Shown piece after piece: positions 10,615 to 36,600 of a stretch of 39,613 nucleotides of DNA. Origin of the DNA: a virus. The notes beneath the pieces are model-generated. The model had not been told where the DNA came from. It was given only the letters and a program-made list of their open reading frames with translations, and made no database searches. The position numbers and the translations under genes are program-made. The stretch spans positions 1 through 39,613 of the IMG/VR virus record IMGVR_UViG_3300045970_000995; one strand, given 5' to 3'. Numbering within the stretch: position 1 is the first letter of the stretch; each line of letters begins with the position of its first letter.

Positions 10615-10968
10615 TTAAAGCGGCAGGTTGCCCTGGCGGCTGCGCCGATCGCGTTCGCGCATAGCCGCGACGATGCGCCCGAGATGGCGCGCCGAGATGG
10701 TGTATTCGCGACACAGCTCCGGGCCGTTGCGGCCGTTCCAGCGGGCGTAGATGCTCTTGTCGCGATCGGACAAGGCAAACTCCACGCCGATCGGGATATA
10801 GGGCTGCTGGCCGCCGAATTCACGGCGTACGCCCTCCGCCGTGGCGAAGGCCGCTTGTTGCGCCAGATCGGCACCGATGCCGACCTCGCGCAGGTTTTGC
10901 CACACCACCTGGGCGATCTCGCCAAGCAGGTCCGGATAGCCTTCCGGCAGGGTCAGCGTTTCAGCCAT
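10615..10968 (-). CDS. mor: Mor-type middle/late transcription activator
   Basis: The 117-aa protein belongs to the Mor/C family of activators. The N-terminus YPDLLGEIAQVVWQNLREVG and the central GGQQPYIPIGVEFALSDRDKSIYARWNG are characteristic of the dimerisation region. The C-terminal helix-turn-helix CREYTISARHLGRIVAAMRER binds promoter dyads and recruits RNA polymerase. Only one Mor/C protein is seen, so, as in several Mu-like phages without a separate C, it may switch on the late genes directly. It overlaps the GemA gene by 16 bp. Confidence 0.92.
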   Translation of the reverse strand: MAETLTLPEGYPDLLGEIAQVVWQNLREVGIGADLAQQAAFATAEGVRREFGGQQPYIPIGVEFALSDRDKSIYARWNGRNGPELCREYTISARHLGRIVAAMRERDRRSRQGNLPL

Positions 10969-11372
10969 TGCTTGAGCGCCTCAATCAACCGCGCCAGCTG
11001 CGCGCCGCTGCAGAACTGCAAGGCATCGACGCCGATCTGCCGTTTGACGAAGCTGGCCAGCGCCGCCTCCGATGGATCGCGCACCAGGCCAGCGCCGTGC
11101 AGCTCCAGCCACAGGCCGCGAATCATCTTCGCCTGCGGCGCATCGTCCAGCTTCCGCCCGCCGGCCTTGGTCGGCGGCTTCTTCTTCCAGCCACAGGCTT
11201 TGAGGTGGTCAAGCACCTTCTTCCGCCCCGCCCAGTCCAGATCCTTCGCCGAACGCACCCGGCCGAGCGTAAACAGCATGGCGCGATAAGTGTCGTCGTC
11301 AAGACCCAGATCCTTCTTGGCGATGTGGATCTGGGCGAGTTCGGAGGAGCGGACGGCCTGGGCGGTGGACAT
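10953..11372 (-). CDS. gemA: GemA/gp16-family regulatory protein (DUF1018)
   Basis: This 139-aa protein matches the GemA/gp16 family: ELAQIHIAKKDLGLDDDTYR (the family signature KKxLGLDdxtYR), a long linker with CGWKKKPP, and the C-terminal LIEALKQWLKR. In Mu, GemA affects host gene expression and DNA gyrase. The start chosen is the ATG at 11372. A longer in-frame extension runs through the KilA-N gene in another frame and is not believable. It lies between the antirepressor and Mor, the usual place in Mu-like genomes. Confidence 0.9.
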   Translation of the reverse strand: MSTAQAVRSSELAQIHIAKKDLGLDDDTYRAMLFTLGRVRSAKDLDWAGRKKVLDHLKACGWKKKPPTKAGGRKLDDAPQAKMIRGLWLELHGAGLVRDPSEAALASFVKRQIGVDALQFCSGAQLARLIEALKQWLKR

Positions 11373-11374
11373 GG

Positions 11375-12055
11375 TCAGAAGCCGGCGAAGGCCAGTTGCT
11401 GGGCGTACTTGCGGCGGTGCGCCCACAGAATGCCCATGCCGATGCGGGCGATGCGCAGTGCGTTGGCGTCGATCATGGCCCGCTCGACCATGTCGCGGAT
11501 CGCCTTGCCGACCGTGCCGGACGTCCGCCGCACCATGCGCCCGATGTACCAGTAGGGTTCGCCCTTGAGCGCCATCTCGCGGATGGTCCGTCGCTCCGGG
11601 TAACGGCGGAAGTAGATCCGCTCGGCGGCGTTGACCTTGTGCCGGTAGGAGCGAATCTCGCCGCTGACCAGGGCATCGTAGGCGCGGATCACCTTGAGCG
11701 TGAAAGCCGGGCTGATCCACATCGCGTAGGCGTAGACCAGTTCCTTGACGACGAAAGTGCCGAGTTTCTGGGTCATGGAAACAGGCGGAATTCCGCCTAT
11801 TGCAGCGGCTGAAATAGCCGGAATTCCGGCTATTCCCAGGGGCGGAATTCCGCCCCTGAAAGTAATCGGAGTTCCGTCCACTTTGGAGTGCTCCATAGGA
11901 AGTTCGGCGATCAACGCCTTTGTTTGCTTGTTTCCGATGAAGTACTTCGGCCGATGACGCTGTTCGCCGCCGGAAGCCTTGTGCAGATCGTTGAGACAAT
12001 ACCGCCCGGCGTCGTCCTGGCGGATCGGGGTGTCGATGATGGTCAGCGCGGGCAT
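11375..12055 (-). CDS. KilA-N domain antirepressor-like protein with palindromic insertion
   Basis: The 226-aa protein begins with a KilA-N-type region (DDAGRYCLNDLHKASGGEQ, RPKYFIGNKQTKALI) and resumes it at LGTFVVKELVYAYAMWISPAF. The C-terminal part is helical and basic (IREMALKGEPYWYIGRMVRR). KilA-N proteins bind DNA and serve as phage antirepressors. Between the two halves of the domain (about residues 66-92) is an odd proline/glycine/isoleucine insert with GGIPPLG, AGIPAIS and GGIPPVS, encoded by a run of palindromes (separate entry). The start overlaps the icd-like gene by 13 bp. The upstream antisense-RNA locus mirrors the P1 c4-icd-ant arrangement. Confidence 0.82.
   Translation of the reverse strand: MPALTIIDTPIRQDDAGRYCLNDLHKASGGEQRHRPKYFIGNKQTKALIAELPMEHSKVDGTPITFRGGIPPLGIAGIPAISAAAIGGIPPVSMTQKLGTFVVKELVYAYAMWISPAFTLKVIRAYDALVSGEIRSYRHKVNAAERIYFRRYPERRTIREMALKGEPYWYIGRMVRRTSGTVGKAIRDMVERAMIDANALRIARIGMGILWAHRRKYAQQLAFAGF
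11782..11857. repeat. Three perfect GGAATTCC-centred palindromes inside the KilA-N gene
   Basis: Three perfect palindromes sit in tandem: 16 bp at 11782-11797, 22 bp at 11812-11833 and 22 bp at 11836-11857. All share the core GGAATTCC but have different flanks (AGGCGGAATTCCGCCT, AATAGCCGG core flank, CAGGGGCGG core flank). Their centres are 33 and 24 bp apart, so the reading frame is kept. A degenerate fourth (CGGAGTTCCG) follows near 11869. Such DNA could form cruciforms, or hairpins in the mRNA. Confidence 0.95.
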
Positions 12056-12300
12056 GACGGTCTCCAGACGAGGTCAGGTTGGGCGGTGTCGAGCAGGTCG
12101 GCGATCAGGCCGAAGGTCACGGCGATCGATTCCATCCGTGCTTCGCAGAACTCCTCGCGGTTACAGGCGAACACGGACAGGAGGCTGCTCAGATGCCGCG
12201 CCTGGTACAACGCGGTATGCTGGTCTTCGTTGATGCGGTAGGGGTTGCGGGGGTCGAACGCGGCAACGTCCGGGGCGGACGGGGTTTGTTTCTTTGGCAT
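12043..12300 (-). CDS. icd-like small protein between antisense RNA and antirepressor
   Basis: An 85-aa protein starts at the ATG at 12300, seven bases after GGAG. It reads VAAFDPRNPYRINEDQHTALYQARHLSSLLSVF and is predicted to be mostly helical. I recall relatives of the '(F/L)DPRxPYRI...ALYQA' type from phage and island loci in Pseudomonas and other proteobacteria, function unknown. By position it corresponds to icd of P1, the gene whose translation is blocked by C4 antisense RNA and through which the downstream antirepressor is controlled. An in-frame extension up to 12567 exists but overlaps the RNA locus and is considered doubtful. Confidence 0.7.
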   Translation of the reverse strand: MPKKQTPSAPDVAAFDPRNPYRINEDQHTALYQARHLSSLLSVFACNREEFCEARMESIAVTFGLIADLLDTAQPDLVWRPSCPR

Positions 12301-12478
12301 GGCATGGCTCCAAGTAGGCGCTTCATTCGCCCGCCGCCCCGCTGTCAAACGGGAGGGCGGACACGTGCGGGTTGACAGACCGGACTTGGACCGGCGAGCC
12401 CGAAGGCTCCCCACACGCGCCGCCCAAAACCTGGGCTCGCCATGCAACGGACGTAAAAAAACCGCTTGAGGCGGCCGT
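12301..12478 (-). promoter_or_regulatory. Structured leader with candidate C4 target sites
   Basis: This 178-base gene-free leader lies between the C4-like RNA and the icd-like gene. It contains sequences able to pair with loops of that RNA. On the minus strand, CTGTCAACCC (12369-12378) is complementary, with one bulge, to the C4 loop GGGTTTGACAG. GCGGCGGGCGAATG (near 12324-12337) partly complements the C4 loop CGTTCGCCGC and lies just upstream of the ribosome binding site. A TTCG-capped GAGCC/GGCTC hairpin and a second CGTTTGACAGCG segment add competing structures. Confidence 0.6.
12455..12474 (-). terminator. Hairpin plus T7 run after the C4-like RNA
   Basis: On the minus strand CCGC-CTCAA-GCGG is followed directly by seven T residues. 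It lies 5 bases beyond the outer stem of the C4-like RNA, so it could define its 3' end or attenuate transcription into the icd-like and antirepressor genes. The stem is only 4 bp, so it is probably weak and conditional. Confidence 0.5.
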
Positions 12479-12554
12479 CCGCCAAGTACCGGGCTGTCAA
12501 ACCCGACCGCTGGAACCCCAGCGGCGAACGGATTCTGCGCCCGGTAAATGGCGG
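12479..12554 (-). ncRNA. c4-like: C4-type antisense RNA (P1/P4 immunity RNA family)
   Basis: A 76-nt segment folds on the minus strand into a long outer stem: arms 12540-12554 and 12479-12493 pair at 13 of 15 positions. An inner perfect 7-bp hairpin (12507-12513 with 12518-12524, CCGCTGG/CCAGCGG) and a loop segment GGGTTTGACAGCCC lie within it. The motifs CCGCCATTTACCGGG, CGCTGGGGTTCCAGCG and GGTTTGACAGCCCGG match my memory of the C4 antisense RNA family, which is about 77 nt in phage P1. C4 is processed from the operon transcript, pairs with a downstream leader and stops expression of icd and the antirepressor. Here the same order is seen. Its location inside an early operon of a Mu-like phage is unusual. 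Confidence 0.8.
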
Positions 12555-12563
12555 CTGTCAAGC

Positions 12564-12812
12564 TCATAGCACCGGCCCCTCCGGAAACTCCGCCCAGTGC
12601 GTCGGTGCGAGGATGGGCATGGCATCAGCGCAGTACCAGACGACGCGGTCGCGTTCGTCCACGTCGTACCAGCACGGCCACACCGGATCCGACCAGAGCG
12701 GATTGAAGCCCAGCACCGATATGGTGGCGTCTGGGTATTCCATATCCGTGGGAATCCAGACAAGCTGTTCCATATGCAATGGGCTGCTGCGGGGAACGGC
12801 AGCGCTCAGCAT
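12564..12812 (-). CDS. DUF551-like small protein (divergent copy)
   Basis: The 82-aa protein reads EQLVWIPTDMEYPDATISVL, then WYCADAMPILAPTHWAEFPEG. The WIP start and the terminal THWAEFPEGP correspond to the DUF551 pattern (WIxxxxxxP ... VTHWMPLPxPP) of small phage proteins. Function is unknown. It is adjacent to another DUF551-like gene and is probably a diverged duplicate. The ATG at 12812 overlaps the upstream stop region. The internal ATG at 12773, just before EQLVWIP, is an equally good start. Confidence 0.7.
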   Translation of the reverse strand: MLSAAVPRSSPLHMEQLVWIPTDMEYPDATISVLGFNPLWSDPVWPCWYDVDERDRVVWYCADAMPILAPTHWAEFPEGPVL

Positions 12813-13066
12813 TTAGGCGGCTCCGGCAGCGGCATCCAGTGGGAGACAACGGCTTCCTCGTTCTCGAATCCGGTGGCGTGCCAGGTCTTGCCATCCCAAT
12901 AGCCGAGGAAGACGATCCGCTCATCGGCGAAAGGCAGGGTTTCTGCCGTCAGCACATCCTCGAAGGGCTCCGGCAGGAATTCTTCGGCCGGGATCCAGAC
13001 CGGCGGCGGGCACTTCGCGTTGTGATCGCCGCCGAGTCCGTAGGGGCAATGGCAGTGATTACTCAT
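12806..13066 (-). CDS. DUF551 small protein with Cys/His-rich N-terminus
   Basis: The 86-aa protein begins MSNHCHCPYGLGGDHNAKCP, a short cysteine/histidine cluster that might bind metal. It continues as a DUF551 domain: VWIPAEEFLPEPFEDVL, then IVFLGYWDGKTWHATGFE and the hallmark VVSHWMPLPEPP. DUF551 proteins are common in early regions of temperate phages and have no known function. It overlaps the Gam stop by 4 bp. Confidence 0.8.
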   Translation of the reverse strand: MSNHCHCPYGLGGDHNAKCPPPVWIPAEEFLPEPFEDVLTAETLPFADERIVFLGYWDGKTWHATGFENEEAVVSHWMPLPEPPKC

Positions 13067-13584
13067 GCCGTCGTCTCCTCGGTAGCCGCCTTGAGCAGTG
13101 CGTCGACCATCTTGTCCACGGCGCTGTCGACCGGCTTGATGAACACGGCTTCGCCACCGTCTTCGATGCTGATGCCGAGCTTTTTCAGCTCCGCCGCGGT
13201 GAGGTTGTTGAGCGCATCCTTGGCCGGCTTCTTGGTGGTGGTGATGAGCACGTCGGCCTGCAGCGGGTAGTGCTTTTCGATGAGGCGCACCACCTGGTCG
13301 GCATCATCCCACTCGATCTTGCCCTTGCCTTTCATGTAACCGAGGCGAATACCGTGGAAGGTGGCGGTCTTGGGTTTCTCGAACAGTTCCGGCGCCGCCT
13401 CGACCAGCGCCTTGAGGGCGTCGTGATGCTCGGCAGCCGCCGCCACGGCGCGGCGCAGCTTGGGCAGGGCAGCCTTCTTGATGACGTCCATGTCGGTTTC
13501 GAGTTCGGCGACGATGCAGGTCATGCGGGCGCGAGCGTCGGCATACTTTTTTGCCGCCAGCTCGATTTGGTTCATGTGGGTCAT
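13063..13584 (-). CDS. gam: Gam-type host-nuclease inhibitor
   Basis: The 173-aa protein fits the Mu Gam family, Ku-like proteins that coat double-stranded DNA ends and block exonucleases. It shows a long N-terminal helix (NQIELAAKKYADARARMTCI), an EHHDALKALVEAAPELFEKP stretch, the beta-hairpin ATFHGIRLGYMKGKGKIEWDD typical of the family, then IEKHYPLQADVLITTTKKP. Its place between B and the antirepressor region fits the Mu order. A second ATG (13575) is nine bases downstream. Confidence 0.85.
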   Translation of the reverse strand: MTHMNQIELAAKKYADARARMTCIVAELETDMDVIKKAALPKLRRAVAAAAEHHDALKALVEAAPELFEKPKTATFHGIRLGYMKGKGKIEWDDADQVVRLIEKHYPLQADVLITTTKKPAKDALNNLTAAELKKLGISIEDGGEAVFIKPVDSAVDKMVDALLKAATEETTA

Positions 13585-14472: not shown

Positions 14473-14831
14473 GGCGCCCCCACCGGCATCGCCTGGCACC
14501 ATTCGATGAGTACCGGGCCGACGGTGAGCTGATAACGCGCCCGCCGCACGCCGGCCTTGCAGGTCCACAACTTCACCCATAGGGCCCGGCCGGCGGCCAC
14601 CTCCTTGGCTGTGACATGGTTCGGTGCCACTGTGATGCGCGCCTGCAGACGCCAGGCGTCGACCTCGGCCTTGCGGATGTCGTAGCCATCGCGCTTCATG
14701 GCCAGCAGCGCGGTCAGCATTTCGCGCAGCAGATCGATGGTGATATCACTGTGCGGCCGTGGCTTGCCGGCGTTGGGGCCGCTGCTGATGACGGGCTGCC
14801 GCGTCGGCAGATGTTCAATGATTTCGAACAT
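14469..14831 (-). CDS. Hypothetical 120-aa protein following B
   Basis: This 120-aa protein (HSDITIDLLREMLTALLAMK, RDGYDIRKAEVDAWRLQARI, AAGRALWVKLWTCKAGVRRA) has mixed alpha and beta character. No family is recognised. It overlaps the end of the MuB-type gene by 17 bp and is part of the early operon, so it is expressed with the transposition proteins. Confidence 0.6.
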   Translation of the reverse strand: MFEIIEHLPTRQPVISSGPNAGKPRPHSDITIDLLREMLTALLAMKRDGYDIRKAEVDAWRLQARITVAPNHVTAKEVAAGRALWVKLWTCKAGVRRARYQLTVGPVLIEWCQAMPVGAP

Positions 14832-16062
14832 GAGCAGCCTCCTTGATCACATCGGCGGACACGGTCGGCACGCCCAGTTCGGCGGCACGGTTCATGGCCA
14901 GGGTGGCGAGGTTGTTCACCACCAGCGGATAGACACCCTGGCGCATCTGGTTGAGCGTCTCGCGCAGGGCATCGAAGGCGTCGTCGGCAAACACCTGGCC
15001 GAGCGGAACGGTCTGCCGGCCGAGCTTGTGCTGCAGGTAATCGCGGACATTGGCGTCGAGCGGCTGCAGCTCGGCCACCTCGCAGCGGCGGATCACTTCG
15101 CGCGCCTCCGGATGGCGGCGCTCATCGAGCTTGTGTTTGAGTTCCGGCTGGCCGATCAGGACGATGGAGAGCAGCTTGCGAAAGCCATCCTCCAGCTCAT
15201 AGAAGCGCTTCAAGTACTTGAGCGTAGCGATCGACAGGTCGTGGGCTTCCTCGATCAACAGCACATGGTTGTAGCCTGCCGTTGCCGAATCCTTCAGCAC
15301 CTTCTCGACTTGCCGCGCCTGCCCTTCCAGGCTGGCGCGCATCTTCTCGCCTTCGGCCAGATCATTGACGATGGCCTGGCAGATGTTGCCGGTGGATAGA
15401 CGCGACTTGTCCAGGGCGCGCGGGAAGATAACGCGGATCTGCAGCTCGCGGATGCGCTCCAGCAGCATCTTGCGCAGCGTGCTCTTGCCGCTGCCCGATT
15501 CGCCGGCGACAGCCAGGAAGCCGCCATTCTTGGCCGTCTGGAACATCGCCTCGCTGATGTAGCGCTGCCCGGCCGAAACGAAGACATCGTCGGGACTGCT
15601 CATCTCATCGGTAAAGGGATCGCGGAATAACTTGAAATGGCGCTTGGCACTGGGGGAAAGCATGACAACCTCCAAAGGTTCAATATCGGTTTTGGCAACG
15701 CGGTGGGCAGGGCGACCGAACGGATTGCCGCTGGCCTGGCCAAGATGGACGCCGGCGGGCTGCCGGGCGCGGTAACGGTCATCGCCGTCGATGGCCCAGA
15801 TCATGTCGATCTCGGCCTGCGGTACGCCCTCGGCAGCCAGCCAGACTTCGGTCTGCAGGCGGATCGACTCGGCCGGCGTGTTCTTCGGCCAGGTGCCCCA
15901 GTTGATCAGCAGCGCCATCGCCGCGTGCGACAGCGGTCGGCCGTTGCTCTGCAGGATGGCGCCGGCCAGCTCCGACTGGTTGAGTCCATGCCGCAGCAGC
16001 GCGCCTTTCAGTTCCAGGGGCATGTACGGATCTCCGTTAAAGTTGAGGACGGCGGCAGGCAT
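14815..16062 (-). CDS. B: MuB-type transposition ATPase (AAA family)
   Basis: The 415-aa protein is the AAA ATPase that selects target DNA and activates the transposase. Residues 1-100 hold a helical DNA-binding-like region (LKGALLRHGLNQSELAGAIL). After a linker, the ATPase begins near 135 (LSPSAKRHFKLFRDPFTDE), with Walker A GESGSGKST at 187-195 and Walker B VLLIEEAHDL at 267-276, followed by IGQPELKHKL. The ExeA/GspA-like layout and larger size differ from the 312-aa MuB of phage Mu. The ATG at 16062 follows GGAGG. An 18-aa leader ORF overlaps this start, and a hairpin lies between A and B. Confidence 0.9.
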   Translation of the reverse strand: MPAAVLNFNGDPYMPLELKGALLRHGLNQSELAGAILQSNGRPLSHAAMALLINWGTWPKNTPAESIRLQTEVWLAAEGVPQAEIDMIWAIDGDDRYRARQPAGVHLGQASGNPFGRPAHRVAKTDIEPLEVVMLSPSAKRHFKLFRDPFTDEMSSPDDVFVSAGQRYISEAMFQTAKNGGFLAVAGESGSGKSTLRKMLLERIRELQIRVIFPRALDKSRLSTGNICQAIVNDLAEGEKMRASLEGQARQVEKVLKDSATAGYNHVLLIEEAHDLSIATLKYLKRFYELEDGFRKLLSIVLIGQPELKHKLDERRHPEAREVIRRCEVAELQPLDANVRDYLQHKLGRQTVPLGQVFADDAFDALRETLNQMRQGVYPLVVNNLATLAMNRAAELGVPTVSADVIKEAAHVRNH

Positions 16063-16093
16063 GGCGTCCTCCAAGTAATGCGTTGGTGCTCAT
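16037..16093 (-). CDS. Possible 18-aa leader peptide overlapping the B start
   Basis: An ATG at 16093 is preceded by a strong GAGGGAG ribosome binding site, better than most in this operon. It opens an 18-codon frame (MSTNALLGGRHACRRPQL) that reads across the B start codon in another frame and stops at 16037. Such an overlap could couple or limit translation of B. This is a weak call based on site quality alone. Confidence 0.3.
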   Translation of the reverse strand: MSTNALLGGRHACRRPQL

Positions 16094-16160: not shown

Positions 16161-17990
16161 TCAAGCCGCGCTGCCGGCAATGCGCCCGGCAACTTGCGGC
16201 AAGCCATTGAACCGGTCGGCCACGGCCACCAGTTCGGATTCCAGAATTCCCTGCGGGTAATCCCGCGCCAGCTGCTGGTAATGCGTGGCCGACCAGCCTT
16301 CGACCAGGCGAATCAGCCGGCCGGCAGCCTGAATCACCGACAGCGGCTGTTCCTCGATCTGCAGCGCCGCCGGAACCGTCAGTGCCGAGGGCTGGGCTAC
16401 GACGCCCGGCAAGGGCGTCGCCAATGCCGTCCCGCGCCTGGGCAAATAAGCGGGGGCGTTGGCCAGATCGTTTTCCATGTGCTTGCGTGGATCCACCTTG
16501 CCGCCAAACGGCAACCGCCTGGCCTTGCGCGCCGCCGCCGCACCTTCCAGGGTGTCTTCACCCATCACCCGCTTTTCGATGGCTTTGGCGGCCGTCTGCG
16601 CCGGCGTGTCGGCGTGGCGGGCATAGCGCTCGCCGATCACCACGGCGGTATCGTCGAAGCCAGTGGCATCCTTGCCCACCGACTCCAGCACGTAAAACAC
16701 TTCGCGGCCGTCGCCATCGACCGCCACCACCTGGGCACCGTCCGGGCGCCACGGATTGCGCGCCACCAGCACCTTGTCGCGGTTCTGCACATTCGGTACG
16801 GTCGACACGTCATAGGTGGTGCCGCGAAAGCTCACCTGCAGCTTGTCGCTGACGGTGCGCTCTTCCGGTGCTGTCGTCGCCAGTTCGCGGCAGATCGCCA
16901 CTTCCGGCGCCAGGCGCAACTGCTCGGCACTGATGCGCAGCCAGGCCTCATAGCGGGTGCGGCCGTGACGGCTATGTACACTGGTGCCGTTCAGCCAGCG
17001 CCGCCACTGCGCCGCCTCGGCATTGAGTTCGTCCAGGGAATGCACCGTCATCAATTTCAAGCGCGACTCAAAACTGCACTCGATCAGGTTGTGCGCCTGT
17101 TCCACCTGGCCCTTGGCCCGTGGCGCGCCCACCTGGTTGATCAGCACCCGCACCTGCAGCGCCTTGCACAGATTGCGGAAGAGCGCCCCCGTATTGGCCG
17201 AACCCGGATCAAGCATGGCCATCAGCGGCACGCCGTGCACCGGTTCATCCGGACGCTTCTGGATGGCGTTGATGAAGATGTTGCAGAGGTTCTCGCCGGA
17301 TTCGGCGCCGAGCACGTATTCGACATAAATATGGCCGCTGGTGTGGTCGGTCACCGCATAACGCCAGACCCGTTCATTCTCGATCCTGGCCAGGTTGGCC
17401 GGCTTGTTCTTGTAGAACTTGTCGGCATCCATCACCTGCAGGCCGCCGGCACCGGGGACCTTTTCCGCCTTGAGGTAATAGAGCACGCAAATCGAGGCGT
17501 CGATCTGCCAGACATGGTTGGGGTGCAGGGACGCCAGCGAGACGGCCGGCGCCGGGCGCAGCAAGGTGTCCGGGTGATAGCCATGCTTCTTCATGCCTTC
17601 GATCACCGTCGACACGCACAGCAGGCGGATTTCCCCGGTGATCGGGTCGATCGCCTCCAGCTTGGCCAGGCCATTGGCGCGGGCGGTGTCGATAGCCTGC
17701 TCGAACGACAGCAGGCGCTTCGGGTTCTTGCGATAGGAGTTCAGCATTAAGGCCGCGACCGCTTCGGCCTCGTCGCGGAGCACGGCGCTGCGACCGGCAT
17801 CGGCGCGCCGTTTGCGAGGGTTTTTCACAGTGATTTCCTTGGAAAGACGCATGACGGTTTGCAGGCTCTTGCCCAGATCGGTCGCTGCCGCCTGCCAGAT
17901 GGCGCCCTTGCCCCCGTGCGCTGCCAGAGCGGCATCGCGGGCAGCCAGGGCAAGCCGTTCGGCAACGGCCGGGCTCATCATCGGCGGCAT
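16161..17990 (-). CDS. A: MuA-type DDE transposase
   Basis: The 609-aa protein catalyses strand transfer during phage integration and replicative transposition. The RNase H-like core carries Asp164 (HVWQIDAS), Asp261 (MLDPGSANTG) and Glu297 (RAKGQVEQAHN). The last two are 36 apart, the DDE spacing. Upstream are DNA-binding helices (RKNPKRLLSFEQAI; STVIEGMKKHGYHP), and downstream is the Mu-transposase beta-barrel region (LQVSFRGTTYDVSTVPNVQN, then VLVARNPWRPDGAQVVAVDG). The ATG at 17990 is chosen because longer in-frame starts run back into the upstream DUF3102 gene. The length is close to MuA (663 aa). It should act on the phage ends. Confidence 0.95.
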   Translation of the reverse strand: MPPMMSPAVAERLALAARDAALAAHGGKGAIWQAAATDLGKSLQTVMRLSKEITVKNPRKRRADAGRSAVLRDEAEAVAALMLNSYRKNPKRLLSFEQAIDTARANGLAKLEAIDPITGEIRLLCVSTVIEGMKKHGYHPDTLLRPAPAVSLASLHPNHVWQIDASICVLYYLKAEKVPGAGGLQVMDADKFYKNKPANLARIENERVWRYAVTDHTSGHIYVEYVLGAESGENLCNIFINAIQKRPDEPVHGVPLMAMLDPGSANTGALFRNLCKALQVRVLINQVGAPRAKGQVEQAHNLIECSFESRLKLMTVHSLDELNAEAAQWRRWLNGTSVHSRHGRTRYEAWLRISAEQLRLAPEVAICRELATTAPEERTVSDKLQVSFRGTTYDVSTVPNVQNRDKVLVARNPWRPDGAQVVAVDGDGREVFYVLESVGKDATGFDDTAVVIGERYARHADTPAQTAAKAIEKRVMGEDTLEGAAAARKARRLPFGGKVDPRKHMENDLANAPAYLPRRGTALATPLPGVVAQPSALTVPAALQIEEQPLSVIQAAGRLIRLVEGWSATHYQQLARDYPQGILESELVAVADRFNGLPQVAGRIAGSAA

Positions 17991-18010
17991 GGCGACGGTA
18001 GGGTGGTCAG

Positions 18011-18874
18011 TCAGGACTTCCAGGGCACACTGTTGCCGAGCAAGCCGAACTCCTCGCGCAGCTCGCCCAGCCCCCGCTCGATCTGTTTCAGCGCGCCATC
18101 GAGATAATCGTCGCAACCCCCGCCATGCACGGCGATGTGGTCGGCCAGGGCGCGAAAGGCCGGGCGCAGCTTGTTCTGCAGAGCGCCTTCGACACCGACC
18201 AGGAAGCCGGCCAGTTCGGCGCGAATCTTCGCCAGCTCCTCGTCGGGCGGCAGTACCTTGATGCGCCGCGTCGTCAGCTCATCGATCTTGGCGTTCTTGT
18301 CGGCGTTGAGTTTTTCCAGGGCTTCTCTGATCGCCTTGCCCTCGCGCAGCGCCTTGCGCATCTCCGAAACGGTCATCGTTTCGAATTCGTCGAGGGTGAT
18401 TCCGCGGATGTCCTCGCCGCGTTCCAGGGCATCGATTTCGCCGTCGTCGAGCACCAGCAGTTCGAGGAGTTTGGTCTGACCGATGTTTTTCAAATGACGC
18501 GTTGACGCGACATTTGCAAACTTGACGGTAGCCGTCATGAATTTGTGTGCCATCTGACGACTAAAGCCAAGGGTCTCCACGCGCTCAATGAAGCCGCCGT
18601 GCCCGGTCAGTTCCTTCAGCACCAGCAGGCATTTGCCGAGTTCGAGCACCGCCTCGACACTGCGCCGCTGATGGTGGCGAATCTCGCATTCCAGCGCCTC
18701 CACCGTGACTGCGCCCTGGTAACCGAATTGCACGGCCACCGCCTGGGCGGTTTCGGCCGCCTCCGATTGCAGCATGACCACCTGCTGAAAGGCAGCGTGG
18801 TTGGCCTGGATGATGTCGACAGTTTCCGGGCTGGGTTCGAAGGTTTCTGCGGGTTTGCTTCTGGGTCTGGCCAT
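18011..18874 (-). CDS. DUF3102-like protein upstream of the transposase
   Basis: The 287-aa protein resembles DUF3102. It has long helices, with LECEIRHHQRRSVEAVLELG, GKCLLVLKELTGHGGFIERV and LGFSRQMAHKFMTATVKFAN. It also has ParB-like features (TKLLELLVLDDGEIDALERG; ITLDEFETMTVSEMRKALRE) followed by a coiled coil. Proteins of this type sit directly before A in many Mu-like phages. A DNA-binding role is likely, but the function is unknown. Confidence 0.75.
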   Translation of the reverse strand: MARPRSKPAETFEPSPETVDIIQANHAAFQQVVMLQSEAAETAQAVAVQFGYQGAVTVEALECEIRHHQRRSVEAVLELGKCLLVLKELTGHGGFIERVETLGFSRQMAHKFMTATVKFANVASTRHLKNIGQTKLLELLVLDDGEIDALERGEDIRGITLDEFETMTVSEMRKALREGKAIREALEKLNADKNAKIDELTTRRIKVLPPDEELAKIRAELAGFLVGVEGALQNKLRPAFRALADHIAVHGGGCDDYLDGALKQIERGLGELREEFGLLGNSVPWKS

Positions 18875-20189: not shown

Positions 20190-20568
20190 ATTCGATGGCG
20201 TCGATCAAGTCATGCACGCAGCGGCGGATATCGTCGCGTTCGGGGGTGTCGGTGGTCGGCGTGGCCTCTGGCGCCTGGGGTTGTGGCGGGATTGCGCCAT
20301 GAAGGGATGAGGACGGATGCTCGGTAACATCGCCATTGCCATCCGCGCGCACGGGCCAGCCGCTGTTCTGATCGTTTGGATGCTGTGCTTCACCGCGCTC
20401 GCCATCTGGGGTGTCGGCGATAAGGCTGGGTACGCCCAGGGCGTCCTCGCCTCCTTTGGCGTTCTTCTGCTGTTTTCGCTTGCGCAGAAAGTCGAATAGA
20501 AGCATGGCGACCAGGGGCAATAACATGGTTAAGGCACCCATGAGAAAGAAAATATCGGGCGTGTTCAT
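20038..20568 (-). CDS. Single-span membrane protein after the Ner-like gene
   Basis: The 176-aa protein has an N-terminal membrane helix (FFLMGALTMLLPLVAMLLFD followed by FLRKRKQQK). A low-complexity polar linker comes next, then a helical tail (DDIRRCVHDLIDAIEFTADD, LRFLAVVVTMAWG). Its start overlaps the Ner-like gene stop (ATGA), so it should be co-expressed from the early promoter. Function is unknown. A 60-aa hydrophobic frame on the opposite strand inside it (20317-20499) is judged a shadow. Confidence 0.55.
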   Translation of the reverse strand: MNTPDIFFLMGALTMLLPLVAMLLFDFLRKRKQQKNAKGGEDALGVPSLIADTPDGERGEAQHPNDQNSGWPVRADGNGDVTEHPSSSLHGAIPPQPQAPEATPTTDTPERDDIRRCVHDLIDAIEFTADDLRFLAVVVTMAWGTRPGSALARLRSGAAETDSPRAAPTPPAGHPA

Positions 20569-20816
20569 GCGGCTTCCTTCATTTTGGGTAGGGGTTTGCC
20601 AATGGCGTTGAGATGGAACTCGGGATACCGGCCGGGCCACAGGGCGTCGGGATCGAGACCGGTGATCTCGCAGATGCGGCGGGCGATGCGGCAAGACTTA
20701 GTGCGGCCGTGGATCACTAAATGGACCGCCGAACCCGTCACGCGAAGTTCGCGCGCAACCTGCGCGGCGGAAGTTCGACATTCCTTCAATGTGGCGATGA
20801 CGTGGGCTGGGTGCAT
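20565..20816 (-). CDS. ner: Ner-like HTH regulator, first gene of the early operon
   Basis: The 83-aa protein is a compact helix-turn-helix of the Ner/Nlp type: MHPAHVIATLKECRTSAAQV, ARELRVTGSAVHLVIHGRTK, then ICEITGLDPDALWPGRYP. Ner in Mu represses the early and repressor promoters after the lytic switch. The ATG at 20816 is chosen over upstream frames lacking the domain. It is divergent from the plus-strand HTH gene at 20943, and the two share the pattern VxGxxxSxxI and a PxxLWP/PxxVWPER motif, so they are probably paralogues that read related operators. Confidence 0.82.
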   Translation of the reverse strand: MHPAHVIATLKECRTSAAQVARELRVTGSAVHLVIHGRTKSCRIARRICEITGLDPDALWPGRYPEFHLNAIGKPLPKMKEAA

Positions 20817-20864
20817 GGTTTGATCTCTAGTTGAAGCGGACACAGGGAATTATTACTCAACGAT

Positions 20865-20942: not shown

Positions 20943-21350
20943 ATGCACAAAGCACTGATCAAAGCGGAATTGGAGATGGTGGGAAGAACTCCCGGCGCAA
21001 TTGCCAAGGAGCTCGGAATTTCAACGAGCGCCGTTAGTTTGGTAATCGCTGGAAAATCCAAGAGTCGAAACATCCAGGAGGTAATTGCCAGGGCGATTAA
21101 CCGCCCGTTCGCCGAGGTCTGGCCGGAGCGTTGCGATCTCGGCCCGGGCACCCCTGACGAGAAAGCCCTGCTCGATGCCTGGCGCGCTGCCGATGACAAG
21201 CATCGCCGCCGCGCCCTTGCTGCCTTGGCTGGCGCCAGCGCAACACCGGGGATCGAGTTCTCCGGCAGCGCCACGGTCGGCCGCGTCAGCGTCGGCGACC
21301 AGGTCATCCACGGCGATCACACCATCACTGTCACCGGCAGGAAGAAATGA
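20943..21350 (+). CDS. Probable lysogeny repressor, Ner/Nlp-like HTH protein
   Basis: The 135-aa protein has an N-terminal helix-turn-helix (MHKALIKAELEMVGRTPGAI, AKELGISTSAVSLVIAGKSK, IARAINRPFAEVWPERC). An acidic/alanine helix (PDEKALLDAWRAADDKHRRR) follows, then an unusual glycine-rich beta tail (SGSATVGRVSVGDQVIHGDH). Its position, divergent from the Ner-like gene across an AT-rich operator region, is where the c repressor lies in Mu-like phages. It lacks a peptidase-type C-terminal domain, so induction would not be by RecA-type self-cleavage. Confidence 0.72.
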   Translation: MHKALIKAELEMVGRTPGAIAKELGISTSAVSLVIAGKSKSRNIQEVIARAINRPFAEVWPERCDLGPGTPDEKALLDAWRAADDKHRRRALAALAGASATPGIEFSGSATVGRVSVGDQVIHGDHTITVTGRKK

Positions 21351-33677: not shown

Positions 33678-36600
33678 AAGCCTCCGTTACCATTTGCCGC
33701 GACCCTTTCCACCCCGGCCGCCATCGCGATACCCGCATCCTCACGCGCCGGCGCAAGATCGCCGCCCTGGCACCACGCACCCAGCAGCCGTTCATCTGCC
33801 TGATCAACGGCGCGCCGCTGCTTCGCGCCGGTTGGCAACGCAAGCTGCGCGACGGCGATCTGGTCACCTTCATCCTGCTCCCGCAGGGCGGCGGGGGTGG
33901 CGGCTCGAACCCGCTGTCCACCATCCTGATGATGGCGGTGATGGTGTTTGCCCCAGCGGTGGGGCTGTCCCTGGCCACCTCGATGGGTGTCACCAGCACC
34001 ATCGGCATCGGCCTGGTCAGGCTCGGCGTCGGCATCGTCGGCTCGGCCCTGGTCAATTCGCTGCTGCCGCCACCCAAGTTGCCGACCGCCGCCTCGGCCA
34101 ATGCGCTGGCCGCTGCCAGCCCGACTTACAGCCTGCAGGCCCAGGGCAACCAGGCGCGCATCGACCAGCCGATCCCGGTCATCTATGGGCGCATGCGCGT
34201 CTATCCCGATTTCGCAGCGATGCCCTACACCGAGTATTCCGGCAACGAGCAATACCTGTATCAGCTGCTGCTGATCGGCCAGGGTGAATACAGCATCGAA
34301 GCCATCAAGATCGAGGATACGGCGATCACCAGTTTCGAGGAGATCACCACCGAGGTGGTGGCGCCGGGCGGCTCGGTAACGTTGTTCCCGGCCAATGTGG
34401 TCACCTCCGGACTGGTGTCCGGGCAGGAAGCCTTGCTCGGTTCGCCAGTGGGCGGGTCGACCGGTTTCGTGGCCAACGCCGCCGCCACGCAAGCCAACGC
34501 CATCGGCATCGATATCGTTTGCCCGCGCGGCCTCTATTACGCCGCCGATAACGGCAGTCTCAACGCCAAGACGGTGACCTGGACGGTCGAGGCGCAGGCG
34601 ATCAACGATATCGGGACGGCCACCGGAGCCTGGGCGACGCTGGGCACGGAAACGCTAACCCGCGCCACCACCACGCCGGTGCGGCAGAGCTATCGCTATG
34701 CCGTGACTGCCGGCCGCTACCAGGTGCGTTTAACGCGCACCAACGCCAAAGACACCAGCAGCCGCGCCGGCCATGAACTCGACTGGGCTGCCATGCGCGC
34801 CTATCTGCCCGGCTCGCAAGCCTACGGCCAATGCACCATGCTGGCGGTGCGCGCCCGTGCCTCGAACAATCTCTCGGCGCAAAGTTCGCGCAAGATCAAT
34901 TGCGTCGTCACGCGCAAGCTGCCGATCTGGAGTGGCAGCACCTGGTCTGCCAACACTGCGACCCGCTCGATTGCCTGGGCTTTCGCCGATGCCTGTCGCG
35001 CGTCCTATGGCGGCAAGCTGGCCAACGCCCGCGTTAACCTCGCCCAGCTGCTGGCGCTCGATACCACCTGGACGACACGCGGCGATCAGTTCAACGGCAG
35101 CTTCGACAGCCAGGGCACGCTCTGGGAGGCACTGACCACCATCGCTCGTGCCGGCCGCGCCCAGCCCTACCTGCAGGGCGGCATCGTCAATATCGTCCGC
35201 GACCAGGCGGCAACCCTGCCGGTGGCCATGTTTACCGGCCGCAACATCGTCAAGGGCAGTTTCAAATTGACCTATGCGATGGCTTCCGATCAAAGCCCGG
35301 ACGCCGTCGAAATCAGCTATTTTGACGAGGATGTGTGGAGCTGGCGGAGCGTCACTGGCGTCGTCTCCGGCGGCACCAGCAGCAACCCTGCTAAGGTCAA
35401 ATCCGTTGGCATCACCAAACGCGCGCAGGCCTGGCGCGAGGCGATGTACATGGCCGCCTGCAATCGCTACCGGCGCCGCCACGGCGGCTTTACCACCGAG
35501 ATGGAGGGCTTTATCCCCTCGCTCAACGATCTGGCCGCGGTGTCCCATGACATGCCGCAGTGGGGCCAGTTCGGCGAAATCCTCGGCTGGGATGTGGCAA
35601 CCAAGACTTTGACCTTATCCGAACCGCTCACCTGGCCGACTGGCACCTGCTATCTGGCCTTCCGCCGCCGCGATGGATCGATGGCTGGGCCGTGGTCCGC
35701 GACGGCCGGCGCCGACGCTTATCACGCCATCATCCCCGGCTGGCTGTCGAGCACCGATCCGACCCCGGATACCGGCATCGATCGTGAGCGCAGCCATTAC
35801 GCCTTTGGCCTCGGCGCGGCACTCTACGCACCGGTGCGTGTGCTCGGCGTCAAGCCGAAATCGGACACGCAAGTCGAACTCTCCGTGGTGGTCGAGGATG
35901 ACCGCGTGCACAGCGCTGACGCTACCGGCTCGGCCCCGGCCGCGCCCGGCTGGGTGCTGCCGATTCGCAACACCGTGCCTACCGTCACTGGCCTGACTGC
36001 CACGCCGATGCTGTTCAACCCCGGCACGGTCATCATCACCTGGAATCCGGCCCCGGGCGCCGAGCACTACCTGATCGACCAATCGAGCGACGGCGTCGCC
36101 TGGACGCGCTGTGGAGACACCAGCGACACCACTTACACCACGGTGGCGCTCTACGGCGCCGCCACCATCATCCGCGTCTGCGGCGCCGGCATGGTGCGCG
36201 GCCCCTGGGCGGTGCTCGGCGGCGTCACGCCGACGCCGATCGGCACGCTGCCACCAGCGGCGCTGACCGGGCTGGCTGCCGAACAGCCCTTTGTCGGGAC
36301 CACTGCCGCCGTCAAGTGGAACGCCATGCCCGGCGCCGACAGCTACACCGTGCTGATCTATTACGGCACCGCCCTGCTGCGCACCGTGATTGGCGTCAAG
36401 GGGCTGCGCTATGCCTATTCGTTCGAGGATGCCAAGGCGGACGGCGGCCCGTACCGCGCGCTGACCTTCACCGTCTCGGCACTCTCCGGCAGCAGCGCCT
36501 CGACCGCCAGCAGCGTCACCCTGACCAATCCGCAATGCGCCGCCCCGACCAATCTGGCGGCAGTGGCGGGAGTGGGCAACATTATGGTCAGCGCCGCACC

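Follow-up and report, generated by a model that had tools for sequence, protein, structure and literature searches.

The question raised by this locus is which of its parts acts as the antisense RNA and which as the target. The material was a single IMG/VR virus record (IMGVR_UViG_3300045970_000995), analyzed over its 39,613 bases and hereafter called the window. A sequence-only reading had placed a C4-type antisense RNA at 12479-12554 of the minus strand, followed by a T-run hairpin, two target sequences, an icd-like gene and a KilA-N antirepressor gene. A match to the Rfam C4 model, RF01695, bore out that the minus strand carries a C4-type antisense locus within a Mu-like early operon, with an 85-aa ORF and a KilA-N gene downstream of it. 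The arrangement resembling P1 c4-icd-ant was also upheld, but the identities of the parts were not, since sense and antisense had been swapped.

Judged by its gene content, with MuA and MuB homologues, Gam and Mor, the virus is a transposable (Mu-like) phage. Its early operon lies on the minus strand and the C4 cassette sits within it. The MuA-like transposase (16161-18116, minus strand; PF00665 rve, 2.2e-4) is 47-50% identical to annotated phage transposases, and the same strand carries a MuB-like ATPase (14815-16074; PF13401) and Gam (13063-13584; PF07352). A DUF551 gene of the same operon lies between Gam and the cassette and, between that gene and the C4 promoter, there is an 82-aa ORF (12564-12812, minus strand) with no match in Pfam or PHROG. 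On the 3' side of the cassette come a GemA-like gene (10953-11330, minus strand) and a Mor-like gene (10615-10968, minus strand), a pair covered by PHROG 286/532, and then a lysozyme-like gene. The operon starts with a Ner-like HTH gene (20565-20843, minus strand), divergent from a second HTH gene (20943-21350, plus strand), both being HTH_35 (Ner/Nlp-like). The names GemA, Ner and lysozyme are assumed here from sequence resemblance. The plus-strand HTH gene is likely the phage repressor, and the KilA-N protein might counteract its action.

A cmscan search of the whole window placed the C4 RNA at 12349-12431 of the minus strand with 60.8 bits (E 1.7e-9), against a curated cut-off of 45 bits. 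The match is full length (model positions 1-87), and C4 was the sole Rfam family above its cut-off in the window. The segment has a predicted folding energy of -50.1 kcal/mol (z -4.56), and the mature RNA probably spans about 12354-12425. Two antisense segments were located on the minus strand: a', CTGTCAACCCG at 12368-12378, which includes CTGTCAA (12372-12378) and pairs with both sites a1 and a2, and b', TCCAAGT at 12384-12390, assigned by sequence and fold to the loop of the second hairpin. The stretch 12369-12378, formerly taken for a target, thus belongs to the antisense segment of C4 itself.

The covariance-model search, clearly positive for the locus, found nothing C4-like at 12479-12554 even at E ≤ 10. 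That region was matched instead by two other families, an isrK-like short RNA (12455-12525, minus strand; RF01394, 44.3 bits, below the curated cut-off of 50 bits; E 5.1e-8 in a permissive scan of the 1.2 kb from 11900 to 13100) and the c4-a1b1 element, named "a1, b1 targets of C4" (12486-12538, minus strand; RF03163, 33.6 bits, below the curated cut-off of 46.7 bits). From the positions of the Rfam matches, 12479-12554 was assigned to the target or decoy element of C4 and 12369-12378 to C4. The isrK-like RNA is composed of a 5' hairpin (12507-12524), the hairpin GGGTTTGACAGCCC (12491-12504) and a terminator, the last being the T-run hairpin already described and now confirmed by a terminator scan (hairpin 12460-12476, T-run 12455-12461, minus strand). 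It contains site a1, TTGACAG (12494-12500), and site b1, ACTTGG (12482-12487), complementary to the C4 segments CTGTCAA and TCCAAGT, respectively. A sigma-70-like promoter was found at 12532-12561 of the minus strand, with -35 TTGACA (12556-12561), an 18-nt spacer and -10 CAGAAT (12532-12537); it has 10/12 consensus matches, one site being found against 0.1 ± 0.4 in shuffles, and a TTGAC box is seen by eye at the corresponding place in many relatives.

The strong fold drawn for 12479-12554 was confirmed (z -7.35) and its TTTGACAG loop is complementary to 12372-12378, as expected if the C4 RNA were encoded there and acted on 12369-12378 and 12324-12337. But the outer stem of this fold includes promoter DNA, with the -10 box inside and the -35 box just outside, and its 5' arm precedes the expected start and would therefore stay outside any transcript of the predicted promoter. 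Together with the isrK and c4-a1b1 matches at that place and the full-length C4 match at 12349-12431, this makes such a placement extremely improbable.

Downstream of C4, the sites complementary to both of its segments are a2, TTGACAG (12342-12348), and b2, ACTTGGA (12309-12315), on the minus strand; these replace 12324-12337, previously proposed as a target. Site b2 overlaps the Shine-Dalgarno sequence GGAG (12308-12311) of the 85-aa ORF (12043-12300, minus strand), the ATG of which, at 12300, stands 7 nt after GGAG. The length attributed to this ORF and its icd position were correct, whereas no similarity of the protein to P1 Icd was found by BLASTP, nor any match in Pfam or PHROG. It is probably a real gene, since it is conserved in the Thiothrix cassette described below. 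The KilA-N gene, rightly placed 3' of the small ORF, encodes 226 aa (11375-12055, minus strand; PF04383, 64.3 bits), and its start codon (12055) lies inside the 85-aa ORF, so that the two frames share 13 nt. The order of the cassette is hence promoter, a1/b1, terminator, C4, a2/b2 over the ribosome site, 85-aa gene and KilA-N gene.

The pairing of C4 with its sites was evaluated on 44 non-redundant loci. Their C4 matches came from genomes and virus records with KilA-N or MuA relatives, and each was oriented. Watson-Crick pairing of the C4 segment with its own or foreign flanks was counted when both sites occurred in order with at least 6 bp each. Both downstream sites were matched in 37/44 own pairings versus 43/1892 foreign ones, and both upstream sites in 40/44 versus 195/1892. 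For the summed longest matches, the observed totals were reached by none of 20,000 permutations. The excess of own over foreign pairing indicates that antisense segments and targets change together. Co-folding, a method that cannot represent loop-loop pairing, found little binding energy. Ahead of C4, 37 of 53 loci have a terminator-like hairpin with a T-run, a feature shared by P1 and Gifsy-1. C4 matches occur in 28 of the 44 genomes holding KilA-N relatives, and the C4 of the window is otherwise unremarkable within an RNA family that is widespread. A single bacterial genome, that of Acinetobacter seifertii, held as many as 20 C4 matches, with three other genomes also noted, in agreement with the many C4-like RNAs reported in A. 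baumannii (PMC5320573).

The c4-icd-ant region (immI) of P1/P7 has in common with the window a1, b1, C4, a2, b2, a small gene and an overlapping regulator gene. The GenBank annotation of P1 gives a1 at 48255-48261, b1 at 48269-48276, c4 at 48343-48419, a2 at 48423-48429, b2 at 48452-48459 and icd from 48470, overlapped by ant1. From the end of C4 to the start codon there are 51 nt in P1 and 49 nt in the window, the a site of P1 (TTGACAG) is identical to that of the window, and a hairpin with a T-run likewise separates b1 from c4. In contrast, the b site is different, P1 encodes Icd and Ant1/Ant2 where the window encodes an unrelated 85-aa protein and a KilA-N protein, and P1 is a plasmid prophage whereas the window belongs to a transposable phage.

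The second system compared was that of Gifsy-1 (NC_010392), where isrK (34240-34316), c4-a1b1 (34277-34329) and C4 (34131-34214) were matched in the order of the window, before the antirepressor gene STM2616, the C4 and c4-a1b1 matches being full and above the cut-off. As in the window, the isrK-orf45-anrP region has an isrK RNA with a terminator, C4 about 25 nt further on and then a regulator gene. The differences are that AnrP follows C4 after about 55 nt without a separate small gene, where the window has the 85-aa gene, that AnrP is unrelated to the KilA-N protein of the window by BLAST, and that Gifsy-1 is a lambdoid phage. Hershko-Shalev et al. demonstrated pairing of IsrK with the orf45 region downstream of it (G28/C162, G31/C159), read-through at the terminator and a processed RNA, STnc1160, derived from the region (PMC4825925). 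When numbering starts at the first base of the isrK match, the mutation and compensatory positions lie inside the C4 match. On the coordinates of these matches, the Salmonella Gifsy-1 isrK locus that was studied is itself a C4 locus, and in our reading such a locus would have IsrK as its a1/b1 arm and STnc1160 as its C4. The terms "C4 RNA" and "phage P1" are absent from the text of that paper (PMC4825925), Rfam places isrK outside the C4 clan, and a literature search found isrK and C4 antisense RNA named together in one paper alone, which lists the two next to each other in a table on Xylella. With respect to the Rfam families RF01695 and RF03163 (Weinberg et al. 2010, PMC2864571), the C4 of the window is well above the cut-off, while its a1b1 element is in the expected place, below the cut-off; c4-a1b1 was listed for gamma-Proteobacteria and phages (PMC2864571).

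The same cassette of C4, small ORF and KilA-N gene was found in a transposable prophage of Thiothrix lacustris (IMGVR_UViG_2556921650_000001), which shares MuA, MuB, GemA and Mor with the window. Protein identities are 42-45% for MuA (44% over 49-584 of the query), MuB, the small ORF (42% over 66 aa, in the same place) and the KilA-N protein (45%), and the Rfam scores are 68.5 bits for isrK, 54.5 for c4-a1b1 and 66.3 for C4. The a sites of Thiothrix read TTGGTCG with CGACCAA in C4, versus TTGACAG with CTGTCAA in the window, and b2 reads CCAATGGA with TCCATTGG in C4, versus ACTTGGA with TCCAAGT. Since the differences fall on both partners, the pairings are kept by compensatory changes; b1 (CCATTGG) departs from complementarity to C4 at one position. 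GemA is encoded before the cassette in Thiothrix and after it in the window.

C4 beside KilA-N was found in none of 100 other MuA-related records (two sets of 50), an absence that marks the cassette as accessory. In the record with the nearest MuA relative (67%), Gam and GemA are present and other DNA separates them. In the first 50 records C4 was matched in seven, none of them before KilA-N, and these were rejected as support for C4 in transposable phages. Six precede small DUF6124-type proteins and were left uncounted, being probably located in host-chromosome flanks, while the seventh is close to the end of its record, and no recognizable gene follows it. The 50 further records gave one C4 match, which precedes no KilA-N gene, and no KilA-N relative. 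As a separate observation, C4 stands about 50 nt before DUF6124-type genes in nine loci, some records holding two that are oppositely oriented (PF19619 for the two proteins tested); C4 leaders seemingly control this small-protein family outside antirepressor operons. No paper joining C4 and transposable phages was found in the literature search.

On sequence evidence, the locus is very probably a C4 antisense switch of the P1/Gifsy-1 type with the parts given above. Transcription would start just after 12532 and run leftward, with a1/b1 and C4 on one transcript. It would either stop near 12455, giving an isrK-like RNA of about 70 nt that displays a1 and b1, or continue past the terminator across C4, the 85-aa gene and the KilA-N gene. 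On the model of P1, whose mechanism is taken here from the GenBank annotation, PMC5320573, PMC8198154 and general background on that phage, C4 would be cut out of the read-through RNA. It would then pair with a2 and b2, covering the Shine-Dalgarno sequence of the 85-aa gene, and the block of its translation would silence the overlapping KilA-N gene via translational coupling and polarity. The KilA-N regulator, probably an antirepressor or another lysis-promoting protein, would thus be off in lysogens. The switch reading is weakened by the likely 5' end of C4, which reads GGG and not the GGW at which RNase P is reported to cut (PMC5320573). The isrK and c4-a1b1 scores under their cut-offs and the dissimilarity of the KilA-N protein to P1 Ant and AnrP also count against it. 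By the Gifsy-1 parallel, the terminated a1/b1 RNA would compete for C4 and set a threshold, an opposing action to which we give about an even chance. Simple decoy action fits imperfectly, because IsrK, in the published Gifsy-1 model, binds the orf45 region and thereby activates translation, and because orf45 (STnc1160) RNA, when expressed constitutively, failed to counter IsrK (PMC4825925).

The upstream element could instead serve chiefly in attenuation, where C4 bound to nascent a1/b1 would favor termination at 12455 and limit its own precursor and the operon, like P4 CI at seqA, to which Hershko-Shalev et al. likened the Gifsy-1 locus (PMC4825925). Site b1 directly adjoins the terminator region, the conservation of the terminator-like hairpin described above is consistent with this role, and the sequence after b1 pairs with that after the T-run. 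CGGACG (12476-12481), directly after b1, is complementary to CGTCCG (12448-12453, minus strand), directly after the T-run, so that read-through RNA can close an outer helix around the terminator, also present in the predicted fold. A helix of at least 5 bp is formed with the own partner in 15/38 loci, versus 15% of foreign pairings, a level reached by 5 of 20,000 shuffles, while its sequence varies (CGGACA/TGTCCG in P1, CGACA/TGTCG in Gifsy-1, CGCACA/TGTGCG in Thiothrix). Lowering the limit to 4 bp leaves a weak signal (the level is reached by 1103 of 20,000 shuffles), and the search ranges were picked after viewing the sequences; for both reasons the helix is regarded as a lead. The Rfam isrK and c4-a1b1 matches stop short of its 3' arm. 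Against attenuation, the helix can form only once the T-run lies behind RNA polymerase, which sets it apart from a classical antiterminator, and most of the surveyed loci that precede DUF6124 genes lack the terminator. Attenuation as the main role of the upstream element is therefore considered possible, though somewhat doubtful.

With C4 working as proposed, the silenced protein could still be a toxic or DNA-binding one, a harmful early product akin to P1 KilA and not an antirepressor. Its N-terminal part resembles P1 KilA (33% over 121 aa, 1.4e-11), with no similarity to P1 Ant1 or Gifsy-1 AnrP by BLASTP, and its best PHROG is the general transcriptional regulator 129. On the other hand, it also matches PHROG 2127, anti-repressor (2.5e-10), and the gene at the corresponding position in P1 and Gifsy-1 is an antirepressor. 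From these comparisons an antirepressor role is plausible and a KilA-like one rather unlikely. The a1b1 and isrK scores below cut-off would fit a decayed relic without function, but the C4 fold, the complementarity at four sites, the promoter, the terminator, the start sites and the open frames are all intact, and the whole cassette is conserved in the Thiothrix prophage despite the protein divergence; decay is thus highly unlikely.

The window locus is a known RNA family in an uncommon setting. Mu lysogeny is usually discussed via protein repressors. With the antisense switch preferred here, the early operon of a transposable phage would hold an RNA layer of immunity of the P1 type, beside genes long studied in Mu. 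Since the IsrK locus is, by coordinates, a C4 locus, the IsrK mutational data may be reread as C4-target pairing, and this identity makes the choice between decoy and attenuator testable. Tentatively, C4 loci may form a three-RNA circuit, in which a terminated isrK-type RNA would be a dedicated antagonist of the C4 that its own promoter also yields, and the helix spanning the terminator would set the ratio of antagonist to C4/messenger. In that case the element of the window and Salmonella IsrK would exemplify one general system of lambdoid, P1-like and transposable phages.
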